Virus record (IMG/VR): IMGVR_UViG_3300046465_000212
Coordinates: 1-28,167 of that record
From: a virus
Length of the DNA stretch: 28,167 nucleotides
Strand: one strand, 5' to 3'
How positions within the stretch are numbered: position 1 is the stretch's first letter; every line of letters starts with the position of its first letter. The notes below the pieces were generated by a model. The model was given only the letters and a program-made list of their open reading frames with translations. It made no database searches and was not told the origin of the DNA. The position numbers and the translations under genes were made by a program. Below are positions 21,074 through 27,206 of this stretch, piece after piece.

Positions 21074-22210
21074 TTAACCATCACACCGCTCACAAATCCA
21101 ACCTTGAGTGTGATTGTGGTATAAATTCACGCCGCATTTGCAAACCTTTTGGTCGGTATCAACGTAATGCGTCAGCCGGGCAACTTGCCCGTTGTCGTAA
21201 GAGTGAATAAATGCTTCCACCGCCTTCGGGCTTCGATAGCCCTTCTTTGCGTGCCAAGCGTCACTTGCTGACGGGCTGCGAAGATATTCAGCAGTGACTC
21301 CAATGAAGTCCTGCCCGGCCATGAATTTAGCCGTTTGCTTGTGATGGATGTGACCAAGGTAAATGTAGCGGTGAACGCTATTGCTCCACATTTCTGGGCG
21401 TTCGGTTGCCATCAAAAGCGGAGTGTCAGCAAGCTTGGCTCCGTCACCATGAGAGAAACTCAAAAGATTTTTTCCGTAGCTTGAATACTTTCGGTGAGCT
21501 ATTGAAACGTCAAAAGTGATGTTTTTGGATTTTCGGAAATATGCCTTGATTGTCTGGGCAAGCATAAAGCCACTCATGAAATCGTGGTTTGACGGCACAA
21601 AAATAATTTCAACATCGGCCAGCGGCAGGCATTTTTCAATTGCTCTTATATACATATCACGAGCAGCTAGAAAAGCATCATGCCATTTGCCGTCCATGTC
21701 TTGGCTTGTCCCCCCGGTTGTAACTGGAGAGCTTGATGAGTCGATATGAAGGCAGTCGTTGCCGATTACAAAAATGATTTTGTCTAAAGGAAACCCGGCA
21801 GCCTTTTGCAGAAGGGAATCAATGCCGGAGTCAACAATGCTCACGGCCTTCTTCACATCATAACTTTCACCAGCTTCGTGGTTGACTGCCAGTTTGCCAA
21901 CATGGATGTCCGAAGGGTCAAGGATTAAGCAGTGCGGGTTTTTAATTTTGCTGCGCTTAATTTTGCGAAACTTTGGTGAGTATCGCTGAACGTCTTTGAT
22001 GATAGGGTCAAAGACATCTTCAAGCTGCAACCCGTCAGTCTTGCTGAAGATTGAAAACTTCTCAGACTTATACCAAAAGTGTTTGACGTTTGAGAGCGGC
22101 AACCCGGCTTCATCGCATTGGTTTACAAGCTCGCTCGCCACGCCTTTTTTACGGAGCTGCCTTATAAGAGCATATTCGTCTTCACTTAGTCTAAGTCTTG
22201 GAACACTCAT
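21074..22210 (-). CDS. Calcineurin-like metallophosphoesterase (378 aa)
   Basis: All metal-binding motifs are seen in order: DIHVGK (Asp101, His103), GNDCLH (150-155), PSNHDF (Asn208, His209), SHGDG (His254) and YLGHIHHK (His287, His289). The N-terminus has a small helix-turn-helix-like part (LSEDEYALIRQLRKKGVASE). The C-terminus carries a zinc-knuckle-like pair (CKCG near 355 and CERC at the end). The enzyme class cleaves phosphodiester bonds and phosphomonoesters with two metals; relatives near phage replication genes may act on DNA ends. It overlaps the gene upstream by ATGA. Specific substrate unknown. Confidence 0.88.
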   Translation of the reverse strand: MSVPRLRLSEDEYALIRQLRKKGVASELVNQCDEAGLPLSNVKHFWYKSEKFSIFSKTDGLQLEDVFDPIIKDVQRYSPKFRKIKRSKIKNPHCLILDPSDIHVGKLAVNHEAGESYDVKKAVSIVDSGIDSLLQKAAGFPLDKIIFVIGNDCLHIDSSSSPVTTGGTSQDMDGKWHDAFLAARDMYIRAIEKCLPLADVEIIFVPSNHDFMSGFMLAQTIKAYFRKSKNITFDVSIAHRKYSSYGKNLLSFSHGDGAKLADTPLLMATERPEMWSNSVHRYIYLGHIHHKQTAKFMAGQDFIGVTAEYLRSPSASDAWHAKKGYRSPKAVEAFIHSYDNGQVARLTHYVDTDQKVCKCGVNLYHNHTQGWICERCDG

Positions 22211-22497
22211 TCTTTAAGTCTTTTTTGGGTTCGCTCCCATGCCGGGAAAAATACTTCATCCATGCAGCGCACAACGGCTTCCTGCTCATAGTTTTCACAC
22301 CAGCCAACGCCGGAAACCAGCAATGATGCTTCAAGCATTTCATGGCGTAGGGTTGTCTCTAGCGTCCAGCCAGTGATTTCTTTGCTCAAAACTATCACCC
22401 GGTCGTCATGGCGGTATTGGCCATAACAGTCATCAAGCTCGGCACGTTTGATTTTAATTCGTTGGCCTGCAATTAAGACGCTTTGCGGGAATGGCAT
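22207..22497 (-). CDS. Metallopeptidase-like small protein with HExxE motif (96 aa)
   Basis: Residues about 50-66 read LRHEMLEASLLVSG, resembling the helix of small phage zinc proteases of the SprT/ImmA-like kind (HExxH), which often sit beside replication genes. Here the second His is Glu (HEMLE), so the zinc site is changed and activity is uncertain. CENYEQEAVVRCMDEVFFPA could supply other ligands. The beta part (GQRIKIKRAELDDCYGQYR) matches the N-terminal sheet of such proteins. It overlaps neighbours on both sides. It might be an inactive relative used for binding. Confidence 0.6.
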   Translation of the reverse strand: MPFPQSVLIAGQRIKIKRAELDDCYGQYRHDDRVIVLSKEITGWTLETTLRHEMLEASLLVSGVGWCENYEQEAVVRCMDEVFFPAWERTQKRLKE

Positions 22498-24346: not shown

Positions 24347-24924
24347 TGCAATGGTTCGATTGTGTTTTGAATCTTGCTTTCAAGCACTGTTTTTGATTTT
24401 ACAAAATCAATCTTTGGAATGTCTTCCACTTTATCAACTCCAAGCCACTTCAAGAATTTATCTTTATCAGAGCCTGTCTGAGTCAGCAAGCTTTCCAGCT
24501 TTTTAGCCTGTGCTGCTGTGATTACTTGCACAGTGTGCCGCGCTTGATGAGCATCAGAGTCTTCACTAGCGTCAAGGCAAAGCAATCCGGCCAAAGCATA
24601 CTTGCGAGCATAGCTTGATGCAGAGCCGCTGATTTGCTCCATGCTCATGCCTTTACGGCTAGAGTCTAGTTCAGCGTAGCCAGTGCTTGCTAGTGCAGTC
24701 TCGCCATCTGAAATGGTCGCTGTTGCTTTCACAAATAGGCGGCCATCAATGTCGTAAAGGTCATCACTGATGTTAAGCAAGAGCTTGTGCTTTTCAAGCA
24801 ATGGCTTGGCCGCTTGGGTAATGTCTTCAACATTGCGGTAGTTGAATTTGGCAAAAGAATTCTTTCGCCCTTTTGGTGTTTTAAGTTCAGCAATCAATGC
24901 GATTGCGTTTTTTGGTGTTTTCAT
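24343..24924 (-). CDS. ERF-family single-strand annealing protein (193 aa)
   Basis: The KFNYRNVEDITQAAKPLLEK segment (residues 26-45) and MSMEQISGSASSYARKYALA followed by GLLCLDASEDSDA (about 94-126) match the ERF superfamily used by phages in place of Red-beta or RecT. It anneals single strands during recombination-dependent replication. A C-terminal part of about 60 residues (SLLTQTGSDKDKFLKWLGVD) is a small helical domain seen at the end of some annealing proteins. It overlaps the exonuclease by ATGA and the upstream small membrane gene by ATGA. Confidence 0.88.
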   Translation of the reverse strand: MKTPKNAIALIAELKTPKGRKNSFAKFNYRNVEDITQAAKPLLEKHKLLLNISDDLYDIDGRLFVKATATISDGETALASTGYAELDSSRKGMSMEQISGSASSYARKYALAGLLCLDASEDSDAHQARHTVQVITAAQAKKLESLLTQTGSDKDKFLKWLGVDKVEDIPKIDFVKSKTVLESKIQNTIEPLQ

Positions 24925-25073
24925 TGGTTTTTTCTGTTTTGTTTCTTGTCGGCTCGCTGTTTTAGCTTGCTTAAATATCTCTGATTGCTGCGCTTCATGT
25001 TGAGTGCAACAACCAAAACGGTAAATGGAGCCATCAAAGCAATGGCGATAATTGTTAAGAGTGGATGATTCAT
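24921..25073 (-). CDS. Small single-span membrane protein (50 aa) coupled to ERF
   Basis: ATG 25073 to TGA 24921, the stop forming ATGA with the ERF start and the start lying 5 nt after the previous stop. The first 26 residues are one membrane helix (HPLLTIIAIALMAPFTVLVV), followed by a basic tail (NMKRSNQRYLSKLKQRADKK). By the positive-inside rule, the C-terminus faces the cytoplasm. It could be a membrane anchor, a superinfection-exclusion peptide or a lysis helper; the family is unknown. Gene overlap on the 3' side is the main support. Confidence 0.72.
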   Translation of the reverse strand: MNHPLLTIIAIALMAPFTVLVVALNMKRSNQRYLSKLKQRADKKQNRKNQ

Positions 25074-25939: not shown

Positions 25940-26557
25940 TTAAGCAGCAAAATAATTCTTGAGAGCGTCAGCATAAACGTCTGCAAGAGCTTCCTGATTG
26001 CCGTCAAACAGCACCCATTCGCCGGGATTGCTGCCAAAGAACGGCTCGCAGATGATGGCAGTTGGCTCTGTCTTCACTAGGAATTTGTAACCACGCTCAC
26101 CAACCCGCACCATCTTTGCGCCCCGATTGTTCTGTGCAGGAATTGCTGCTTCATGCTGGTTGGCAAACGCCTTGGCCAACTTCTCTCCGCTTTTACTGCC
26201 GTGATAGTAAAGATACTCAAAACCTTTTGCACTTGTGCTTGTGTAGCTGTTGAAATGAAGCTCAATCGCAACATCAAATCCCCAAGTTCGCTCTCGCACC
26301 CACTCCATTGATTTGCCGTATGTTTTGAACGGGTATTCGTTGATGACTTCGGATGCAATCCCGCGCTCCTTGAGCTTCTCATTTAAAAAGATGGCAACGG
26401 CATGGTTGAATTCCCACTCGCTAACACCCCCCACACTTTTAGCGCCGCTATCGTTGATTCGGCTGTGGCCGACACAAATGGCAACCTTTCTAACTGGCTC
26501 GGGTTTTGGCTCACGTTTAAAAAACAAGGAGAGCAGTTTTTGAATGAGTGATTTCAT
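25940..26557 (-). CDS. Endolysin, N-acetylmuramoyl-L-alanine amidase, Amidase_3 type (205 aa)
   Basis: Cuts the bond between muramic acid and the first L-Ala of peptidoglycan. The zinc ligands are clear: His31 (AICVGHSRINDSG), Glu in VGGVSEWEFNHA (about 47), and His101 (ELHFNS); catalytic Glu lies in AIICEPFFGSN near 175. There is no cell-wall-binding domain, and the N-terminus (MKSLIQKLLSLFFKR) has only a short hydrophobic stretch, so it probably needs a holin for release. It starts with an ATGA overlap after the lipoprotein gene. The single-domain build is typical for phages of Gram-negative hosts. Confidence 0.93.
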   Translation of the reverse strand: MKSLIQKLLSLFFKREPKPEPVRKVAICVGHSRINDSGAKSVGGVSEWEFNHAVAIFLNEKLKERGIASEVINEYPFKTYGKSMEWVRERTWGFDVAIELHFNSYTSTSAKGFEYLYYHGSKSGEKLAKAFANQHEAAIPAQNNRGAKMVRVGERGYKFLVKTEPTAIICEPFFGSNPGEWVLFDGNQEALADVYADALKNYFAA

Positions 26558-26784
26558 TTGCCGATTATTATGGCGCGTCGATAGGAGTAGTCACTGTGAA
26601 ACTTCTGCCCGCGCCCGGGAAGGATGCCTTCTTGAAATTGATAAAACTGGCCGTCAATCAGAGTCACTGTCGGCGGGTCGTAAAGTGCGCTCTCGTTTAA
26701 GTCTCCGCGCAAGCCTTTCAATGCGCAACTTGGCAGCAGGACTGCCATCAGCAGCAAGCTCATCAATTGCGTCTTCAAGCTCAT
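26554..26784 (-). CDS. Small lipoprotein, candidate outer-membrane spanin (76 aa)
   Basis: The ATG at 26784 (MSLKTQLMSLLLMAVLLPSC) gives a lipoprotein signal: a hydrophobic core, then lipobox L-P-S-C with Cys20 as first residue of the mature protein. The mature part (56 aa, with LNESALYDPPTVTLIDGQFY) is short and polar, as in Rz1-like outer-membrane spanins, though not as proline-rich. The first half of the gene lies inside the coiled-coil gene 26654-26857 in another frame, the classic Rz/Rz1 arrangement. It overlaps the endolysin by ATGA. Function is inferred from context. Confidence 0.72.
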   Translation of the reverse strand: MSLKTQLMSLLLMAVLLPSCALKGLRGDLNESALYDPPTVTLIDGQFYQFQEGILPGRGQKFHSDYSYRRAIIIGK

Positions 26785-26857
26785 AAATGTAATTTCGTTG
26801 CTTCCACTCCAAATGAGCGACAAAGGCTCTTAGAGCGGCTGTGAGCAGCTTTATCAC
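26654..26857 (-). CDS. Coiled-coil protein, candidate inner-membrane spanin partner (67 aa)
   Basis: It starts with GTG at 26857, which overlaps the stop of the previous gene as GTGA. The first 16 residues (IKLLTAALRAFVAHLEW) are amphipathic and could touch the membrane; the rest is a charged helix (YELEDAIDELAADGSPAAKL, then RIERLARRLKRERTLRP) able to form a coiled coil. Such proteins lie between holin and endolysin in many phages. Unlike true Rz, the N-terminal membrane span is weak, so membrane attachment is open. It shares 131 nt with the lipoprotein gene in a different frame. Confidence 0.65.
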   Translation of the reverse strand: MIKLLTAALRAFVAHLEWKQRNYIYELEDAIDELAADGSPAAKLRIERLARRLKRERTLRPADSDSD

Positions 26858-27030
26858 TTCTTGGCGTTAAAGATGTTCAAGGCCAGCCAGTCGATTAGCT
26901 TGTAAGCCTTGCCTATGATGGTGTCATCTTTCGGGGTGGGTGTCAGTGCAGCGATTGCGGAAGCGGCTGCGATGACGGCGGTGACAATTCCGAAGAGTTG
27001 TTCTTTGTTTTCAATTATGTAATCAATCAT
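26854..27030 (-). CDS. Small membrane protein of the lysis cassette (58 aa)
   Basis: The frame from ATG 27030 to TGA 26854 reads MIDYIIENKEQLFGIVTAVI, then AAASAIAALTPTPKDD and a helix ending LALNIFNAKK. One membrane helix is followed by TPTPKDD and a short amphipathic helix; this plan is common in small phage proteins of unknown function next to holins. It overlaps by ATGA on the upstream side and GTGA on the downstream side. It may act as holin or antiholin with the neighbour. Confidence 0.82.
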   Translation of the reverse strand: MIDYIIENKEQLFGIVTAVIAAASAIAALTPTPKDDTIIGKAYKLIDWLALNIFNAKK

Positions 27031-27206
27031 TTTTTGCGGTTCTTAAATTTTTGCCAAGTGTTAGCCAAAGAAAGGATTCCGATAATCAAACCAATGATTG
27101 CAGACATCAATCCTACGGCAGTCTCAAAATGGTTAAAATAAGCAGAGATAGCTGACCAGCTTGATGCGAGCATTCCAGTGATTGGGTGGGTCAAATGGTT
27201 GTCCAT
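27027..27206 (-). CDS. Holin-like small membrane protein (59 aa)
   Basis: The frame from ATG 27206 to TGA 27027. The first 28 residues are polar, with SSWSAISAYFNH; then one membrane helix AVGLMSAIIGLIIGILSLAN and a basic cytoplasmic end WQKFKNRKK. A single span with charged C-terminus resembles class III holins or antiholins. It is the first of the lysis genes and overlaps neighbours on both sides (TAATG and ATGA), so the cassette is translated as one unit. Lysis function is inferred from position. Confidence 0.8.
   Translation of the reverse strand: MDNHLTHPITGMLASSWSAISAYFNHFETAVGLMSAIIGLIIGILSLANTWQKFKNRKK

Follow-up and report, generated by a model that had tools for sequence, protein, structure and literature searches.

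The minus strand of the 28,167-base virus record IMGVR_UViG_3300046465_000212 from IMG/VR, which was analysed at its full length and is referred to here as the window, contains a five-gene cassette for proteins of 59, 58, 67, 76 and 205 aa, in which the genes of a helical protein (CC) and of a lipoprotein (LIPO) overlap in different reading frames. CC and LIPO are two real genes, both under selection, which lie together in the relatives compared below, and LIPO carries a lipobox. Judging by these relatives, a large family of uncultured viruses has retained the pair, and it probably helps to break the bacterial outer membrane, a variant of the spanins appearing to be the best reading. The virus itself is known from environmental DNA only.

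Gene layout and coding in both frames

The features of the cassette are listed in Table 1. The original prediction described four tiny genes which are chained by ATGA and GTGA overlaps, and this arrangement was recovered on the minus strand of the window, with ATGA at 27027-27030 between TM1 and TM2 and GTGA at 26854-26857 between TM2 and CC. While these four genes stand, the cassette does not stop at LIPO, but includes an endolysin gene that had been left out and whose start overlaps the LIPO stop by a further ATGA (26554-26557). The 205-aa endolysin covers the whole Pfam model of Amidase_3 (E 3.4e-17) and matches the endolysin family PHROG_435 (E 3.1e-34). The description as a lysis cassette is supported. 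The 59-aa protein TM1 had been called holin-like. Its membrane span is clear, with a hydropathy peak of 2.44, whereas the match to a holin family is weak (PHROG_20, E 0.28). Among the two neighbouring membrane families, a hydropathy peak of at least 1.6 was found in 113 of 115 members of the TM1 family and in 87 of 90 members of the other. The 58-aa protein TM2 had rightly been taken for a second membrane protein (peak 2.23); it is a member of PHROG_9685 (E 1.1e-15), a family without assigned function, but this likeness concerns a protein that is only a neighbour and stands outside the constant CC-LIPO pair. As also foreseen, LIPO begins within CC in another frame, namely the +1 frame, and the two genes have 131 nt in common. 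CC starts mostly with GTGA, ATGA or TTGA (171 of 186 loci), and Shine-Dalgarno-like cores seldom precede the starts of LIPO (25/186) or CC (32/186).

Table 1. Features of the lysis cassette in the window and the evidence on which each rests.
Feature	Position	Strand	Evidence
TM1, 59-aa small membrane protein, holin-like	27027..27206	-	hydropathy peak; weak PHROG_20 holin match
TM2, 58-aa small membrane protein	26854..27030	-	PHROG_9685; hydropathy peak
CC, 67-aa coiled-coil/helical-hairpin protein, GTG start	26654..26857	-	paired with LIPO; purifying selection; AlphaFold2
LIPO, 76-aa lipoprotein, lipobox LPSC	26554..26784	-	lipobox pattern; purifying selection
CC + LIPO dual-coding stretch, 131 nt	26654..26784	-	LIPO in +1 frame of CC
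Endolysin, 205 aa, N-acetylmuramoyl-L-alanine amidase (Amidase_3)	25940..26557	-	Pfam Amidase_3; PHROG_435

When LIPO was used as the query against the contigs of IMG/VR, 272 relatives emerged, and the 80 best of them were retained. Together with the window these make 81 sequences; across the overlap, all 81 have an open CC frame and none has an open third frame (0/81), and this frame count is unconditioned, as the 80 loci were selected regardless of CC. In addition, a resampling test was carried out on 187 of the 194 unique loci of the enlarged set described below, in which the LIPO protein was kept fixed and its codons were redrawn synonymously. The median probability of an open CC frame per locus was 0.178 (range 0.036-0.562), and not one of the 187 loci has an open third frame; these loci were picked because CC is present, and related loci are not independent of each other, with about 24 LIPO groups left at a loose similarity limit. 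The length of the overlap in the 187 loci is between 95 and 152 nt, with a median of 119 nt.

For the selection test, the substitutions in the overlap were classed by their effect in both frames, using 12 ungapped groups of at least four. Within the overlap, the ratio NN/SN, which reflects selection on LIPO, is 0.363 (95% interval 0.261-0.508), and the ratio NN/NS, which reflects selection on CC, is 0.293 (0.212-0.399). The corresponding ratio of the LIPO frame in the stretch that codes for CC only is 0.823 (0.485-1.411) and that of the CC frame in the stretch that codes for LIPO only is 1.45 (1.06-2.15), and neither frame is therefore constrained where it is non-coding. A separate pooled calculation, likewise on ungapped groups of at least four and giving no intervals, agrees with these ratios. 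The synonymous-site test on relatives, which had been set beforehand as the check on the overlap, was thus passed by both frames.

Conservation of the pair and variability of its neighbours

Further scans with CC, with divergent LIPO and with divergent CC sequences enlarged the set to 349 sequences, comprising 348 loci and the window, in which many contigs recur. Profile searches found CC and LIPO together in 347 of the 349, which collapse to 194 unique sequences over the core DNA. In the two exceptions, L168 and L202, the sequence breaks off close to the beginning of the contig, but the CC frame is open all the same; among the 349 sequences, no case of CC and LIPO being apart was found where the contig ends permit testing. 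Searches begun from CC or from LIPO each recovered the partner. In 193 of the 194 unique loci, the frame of LIPO is +1 relative to that of CC, and the predicted resemblance to the out-of-frame overlap of Rz/Rz1 is supported. The sole frame exception, locus L266 at the end of a contig, shows CC and LIPO seemingly fused in one frame without the usual signal sequence; this fusion is probably due to truncation or an assembly error, and the locus was retained in the counts.

The genes around the pair are more variable (loci L354-L428 were excluded from this neighbourhood analysis). Where 400 nt or more are available upstream (168 unique loci), the TM2 family was found in 116 and is immediately adjacent in 106. 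In 137 of the 168 loci, a small ORF whose peak indicates a membrane span ends no more than 25 nt from the CC start, while in 20 the ORF at this site has no such peak, 12 of these being soluble with 100-170 aa, and in 11 no ORF of at least 40 aa lies there. The replacements of TM2 include members of PHROG_37382, a family without assigned function, and in L169 a protein that matches a holin/antiholin family (E 0.00041). In L011, L015, L037, L066, L070, L071, L163 and L196, the space between the small membrane genes and CC is taken up by a soluble ORF (roughly 125-150 aa) with the motif YAHEAWVW, whose stop is near the CC start.

Downstream, the 189 unique loci that extend for 900 nt or more on this side include 158 with an Amidase_3-type endolysin in the fetched stretch. 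In 57 of 153 amidase loci, the endolysin start and the LIPO stop overlap by 4 nt, and in 78 of the 153 no start lies within 30 nt of this stop. Ten downstream ORFs, taken from 9 of the 31 loci without an Amidase_3-type endolysin and from L168, were put to Pfam and gave two Amidase_2, three CHAP (two of them below Pfam's own cut-off) and two M15 peptidase matches, and three ORFs were without a match. In a few loci, such as L054, L078 and L286, no endolysin was recognised nearby, and a gene that follows in L078 and L286 is presumably phoH-like. Since both the upstream membrane genes and the endolysins change, the CC-LIPO pair is the constant core of the arrangement.

Protein features and comparison with known lysis proteins

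The predicted lipoprotein nature of LIPO is supported: a permissive pattern detects the lipobox in 194 of 194 unique loci, with LPSC, as in the window, and LQSC as the most frequent forms, and among the ORFs of at least 35 aa on the coding strand of the window LIPO is the only one that fits the lipobox pattern applied there. The +2 residue after the lipobox cysteine is Asp in 0 of the 194 loci, and in E. coli a residue other than Asp following this cysteine favours sorting to the outer membrane. The proline content of LIPO is low, with a median of 3.4%, and its most conserved stretch is located outside the overlap, near HSDYSYRRAIIIG. The structure model of LIPO is poor (pLDDT 61.8), and the fold search was made with the CC model.

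CC was modelled with AlphaFold2 as a helical hairpin with helices at residues 2-37 and 40-59 (pLDDT 86.4). That CC has no clear membrane span, as originally described, agrees with the hydropathy peaks of 160 distinct CC proteins (including two truncated fragments), which have a median of 0.81 and reach 1.6 or more in only 3, with certain divergent members being more span-like (up to 1.88). Soluble controls gave a median of 0.13 and no peak of at least 1.6 (0/302), which places CC between them and the two neighbouring membrane families, and lambda Rz reached 2.63; as the i-spanin T7 gp18.5 scores merely 1.35, the measure is suggestive rather than decisive. Between positions 5 and 16, at least one charged residue is present in 110 of 158 CC proteins and none in 48, and the N-terminal helix in the window bears K3, R10, H15 and E17. 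The N-terminus, comprising approximately the first 18 residues, looks like an amphipathic helix and not like a clear transmembrane domain. The net charge of CC is +1 in the window (median +2), and its C-terminal half is basic, with a net charge of +7 over residues 40-60 in the window.

Neither CC nor LIPO of the window cassette has a significant match in Pfam or PHROGs, and the same applies to 25 diverse LIPO and 25 diverse CC members, whose best PHROG matches are at E 0.0066 (a CC member) and E 0.055 (a LIPO member). One of the 25 LIPO members aligned weakly with the Rz-like spanins of PHROG_456 (E 0.097, residues 1-33). Nothing significant was obtained for LIPO in NCBIfam (best E 0.085), and among the PDB sequences LIPO has no match and CC at best a ribosomal protein at E 0.039. 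A Foldseek search of the CC model against viral structures returned no match at E 0.001 or below, the top match being an uncharacterised protein of an uncultured phage (E 0.51, TM-score 0.84). A tblastn search of 50,697 phage records with four LIPO and two CC queries gave zero matches. In view of the missing Pfam, PHROG and tblastn matches, the family is confined, within this analysis, to uncultured viruses and contigs of metagenome-assembled genomes (MAGs), and we recognised no account of the CC-LIPO pair in the literature searched. Direct profile comparisons with hhalign gave probabilities of 0.2% and 0.1% with one aligned column each for CC against lambda Rz and T7 gp18.5, and CC as an i-spanin by homology was rejected on these grounds. 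For LIPO against lambda Rz1 and T7 gp18.7, the probabilities were 6.7% and 10.4% (E 0.0054 and 0.003, each for a single comparison), with alignments that consist mostly of the signal peptide, to which T7 gp18.7 adds a short stretch beyond.

A survey of 677 phages describes 528 two-component spanins, of which the overlapped ones form the largest class with 228 members (PMC6139136). The prototype i-spanin Rz has an N-in, C-out topology with an N-terminal span. According to the survey, at least one periplasmic cysteine, in one or the other component, is found in 507 of the 528 known pairs, leaving about 4% without (PMC6139136). A helical or coiled-coil domain in the periplasm is common in i-spanins, though not universal, and CC is predicted to be helical, whichever side of the membrane it occupies. 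The overlapped class, which is that of P2 LysB/LysC, Rz/Rz1 being of the embedded type, resembles the CC-LIPO pair in several respects: the LIPO gene, in the place of the o-spanin, starts within the gene of a helical partner in the +1 frame (131 nt in the window) and extends beyond its end, both frames are conserved, the pair lies near lysis genes in the window and in most relatives, and one component is a lipoprotein with a lipobox. In contrast, CC shows no clear transmembrane domain at the N-terminus, a feature on which the hydropathy value of T7 gp18.5 has to be kept in mind, neither component of the window pair has a cysteine besides that of the lipobox, which also holds for 115 of 180 distinct CC-LIPO pairs, and LIPO is not proline-rich and has the conserved C-terminal motif HSDYSYRRAIIIG. 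A further difference from the lambda and T7 i-spanins is the absence of a detectable relationship with CC. Disruptins of the phiKT type, short cationic amphipathic peptides that attack the outer membrane by themselves, are similar to CC in that it is short, amphipathic and helical and occurs in a lysis setting, but CC is only weakly basic overall and has a lipoprotein partner. Likeliest, as far as these comparisons go, CC-LIPO would work like a two-component spanin, yet we do not class it as one because CC has no clear span and the window pair no such cysteine.

Possible roles, host and further observations

Judging from their genomic position and their pairing, CC and LIPO would most likely act in the final stage of lysis of a diderm host, and we lean towards a spanin-like outer-membrane disruptor, in which a weak or in-plane helix would hold CC at the inner membrane. 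LIPO would be exported, lipidated and placed in the outer membrane facing the periplasm, whereas CC would be attached to the inner membrane through its weakly hydrophobic, amphipathic N-terminal helix, which would leave the helical hairpin free for binding LIPO. After the holin has opened the inner membrane and the endolysin has cut the wall, the complex of both proteins would then destabilise or fuse the outer membrane, and the cell would burst. Counting against this reading are the missing clear span of CC, the charged residues in positions 5-16 of most CC proteins, the lack of homology between CC and the lambda and T7 i-spanins, the missing cysteine and the low proline content of LIPO, as well as the fact that the endolysin gene does not follow immediately in every locus and in some was not recognised nearby.

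The amphipathic N-terminal helix without a clear span, the lack of an evident export signal in CC and its basic C-terminal half would also fit a cross between spanin and disruptin, in which CC is bound by its helix on the cytoplasmic side until the holin lesions let it out along with the endolysin, and encounters LIPO and attacks the outer membrane only after this release. We regard this as possible but rather unlikely, given that the overall net charge of CC does not make it a plainly cationic peptide and that disruptins are not known to be paired strictly with a lipoprotein. It would amount to a new class of outer-membrane disruptor, that of a cytoplasmic, amphipathic hairpin protein which is released by the holin and depends on a lipoprotein encoded by its own DNA in another frame, and although we consider such a class doubtful, it would, if true, be employed by a large group of uncultured phages. 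Both this and the spanin-like reading would make CC-LIPO a two-component outer-membrane disruptor.

The missing clear span of CC, together with the small membrane-span ORF immediately upstream in 137 of 168 unique loci, could alternatively indicate that CC is a cytosolic, antiholin-like regulator of lysis timing and that LIPO has a different partner in the inner membrane, for example the 58-aa or 59-aa protein; this is improbable, as these membrane proteins vary and are at times replaced by unrelated ORFs, whereas CC and LIPO were not found apart in the 349 sequences where the ends permit testing. Least probable is a superinfection-exclusion or receptor-masking lipoprotein with CC as its partner and no role in lysis, for which phage lipoproteins such as T5 Llp provide a precedent and the loci in which no endolysin was recognised nearby (L054, L078) or the amidase gene does not begin within 30 nt of the end of LIPO (78/153) could be cited, but which is opposed by the small membrane gene directly upstream in 137/168 loci and the endolysin within the fetched stretch in 158/189, with other endolysin types elsewhere.

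The survey data provide a context: approximately 13% of the surveyed phages of Gram-negative hosts have no recognisable spanin, 31 genomes contain a lipoprotein gene without a closely linked i-spanin candidate, and the criteria given there left other membrane anchors out of account (PMC6139136). A catalogue from 2025, which included IMG/VR, dropped inner-spanin candidates without a membrane span (PMC12596118). The CC-LIPO family would escape such filters, which makes it a tangible candidate for rupturing the outer membrane in phages that have no standard i-spanin. It also offers a compact, deeply conserved overlapping pair for studying the upkeep of both frames.

With regard to the hosts, a scan of one genome per species (84,980 species) found the CC/LIPO family in seven MAG contigs, labelled Porticoccaceae, Opitutae, Verrucomicrobiales, Acidimicrobiaceae (two, one isolate), Blastopirellula and Akkermansiaceae, four of which we take to belong to Verrucomicrobiota or Planctomycetota. 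In 387 and 392 genomes of two such phyla, no match beyond the seed genome was obtained among the matches listed, with at most 14 first-look candidates scored per genome. As only the seed genomes matched, there is no evident sign of prophages, and the contigs may have been binned wrongly. In their terminases, Roseobacter phages come nearest (48.8%), but the annotated lysis set of Roseobacter phage CRP-823 differs from the cassette.

Two further small proteins are encoded on the minus strand of the window. A 50-aa protein (24921-25073) combines a single strong membrane span with a highly basic tail and has no match in Pfam or PHROGs; it was considered as a partner of the pair and rejected, with homologues in 7 of 194 unique loci. 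A 96-aa protein (22207-22497) with the putative metalloprotease motif HEMLE has homologues in 156 of the 194 unique loci with CC and LIPO, mostly at a distance of 0.5-1.7 kb behind LIPO and in several loci directly following the endolysin, and it could be another gene linked to lysis or reflect mere synteny. It belongs to PHROG_1233, a family without assigned function of which one member weakly matches peptidases, and its 140 distinct copies contain the motif HExxH in 77 cases and HExxE in 60.
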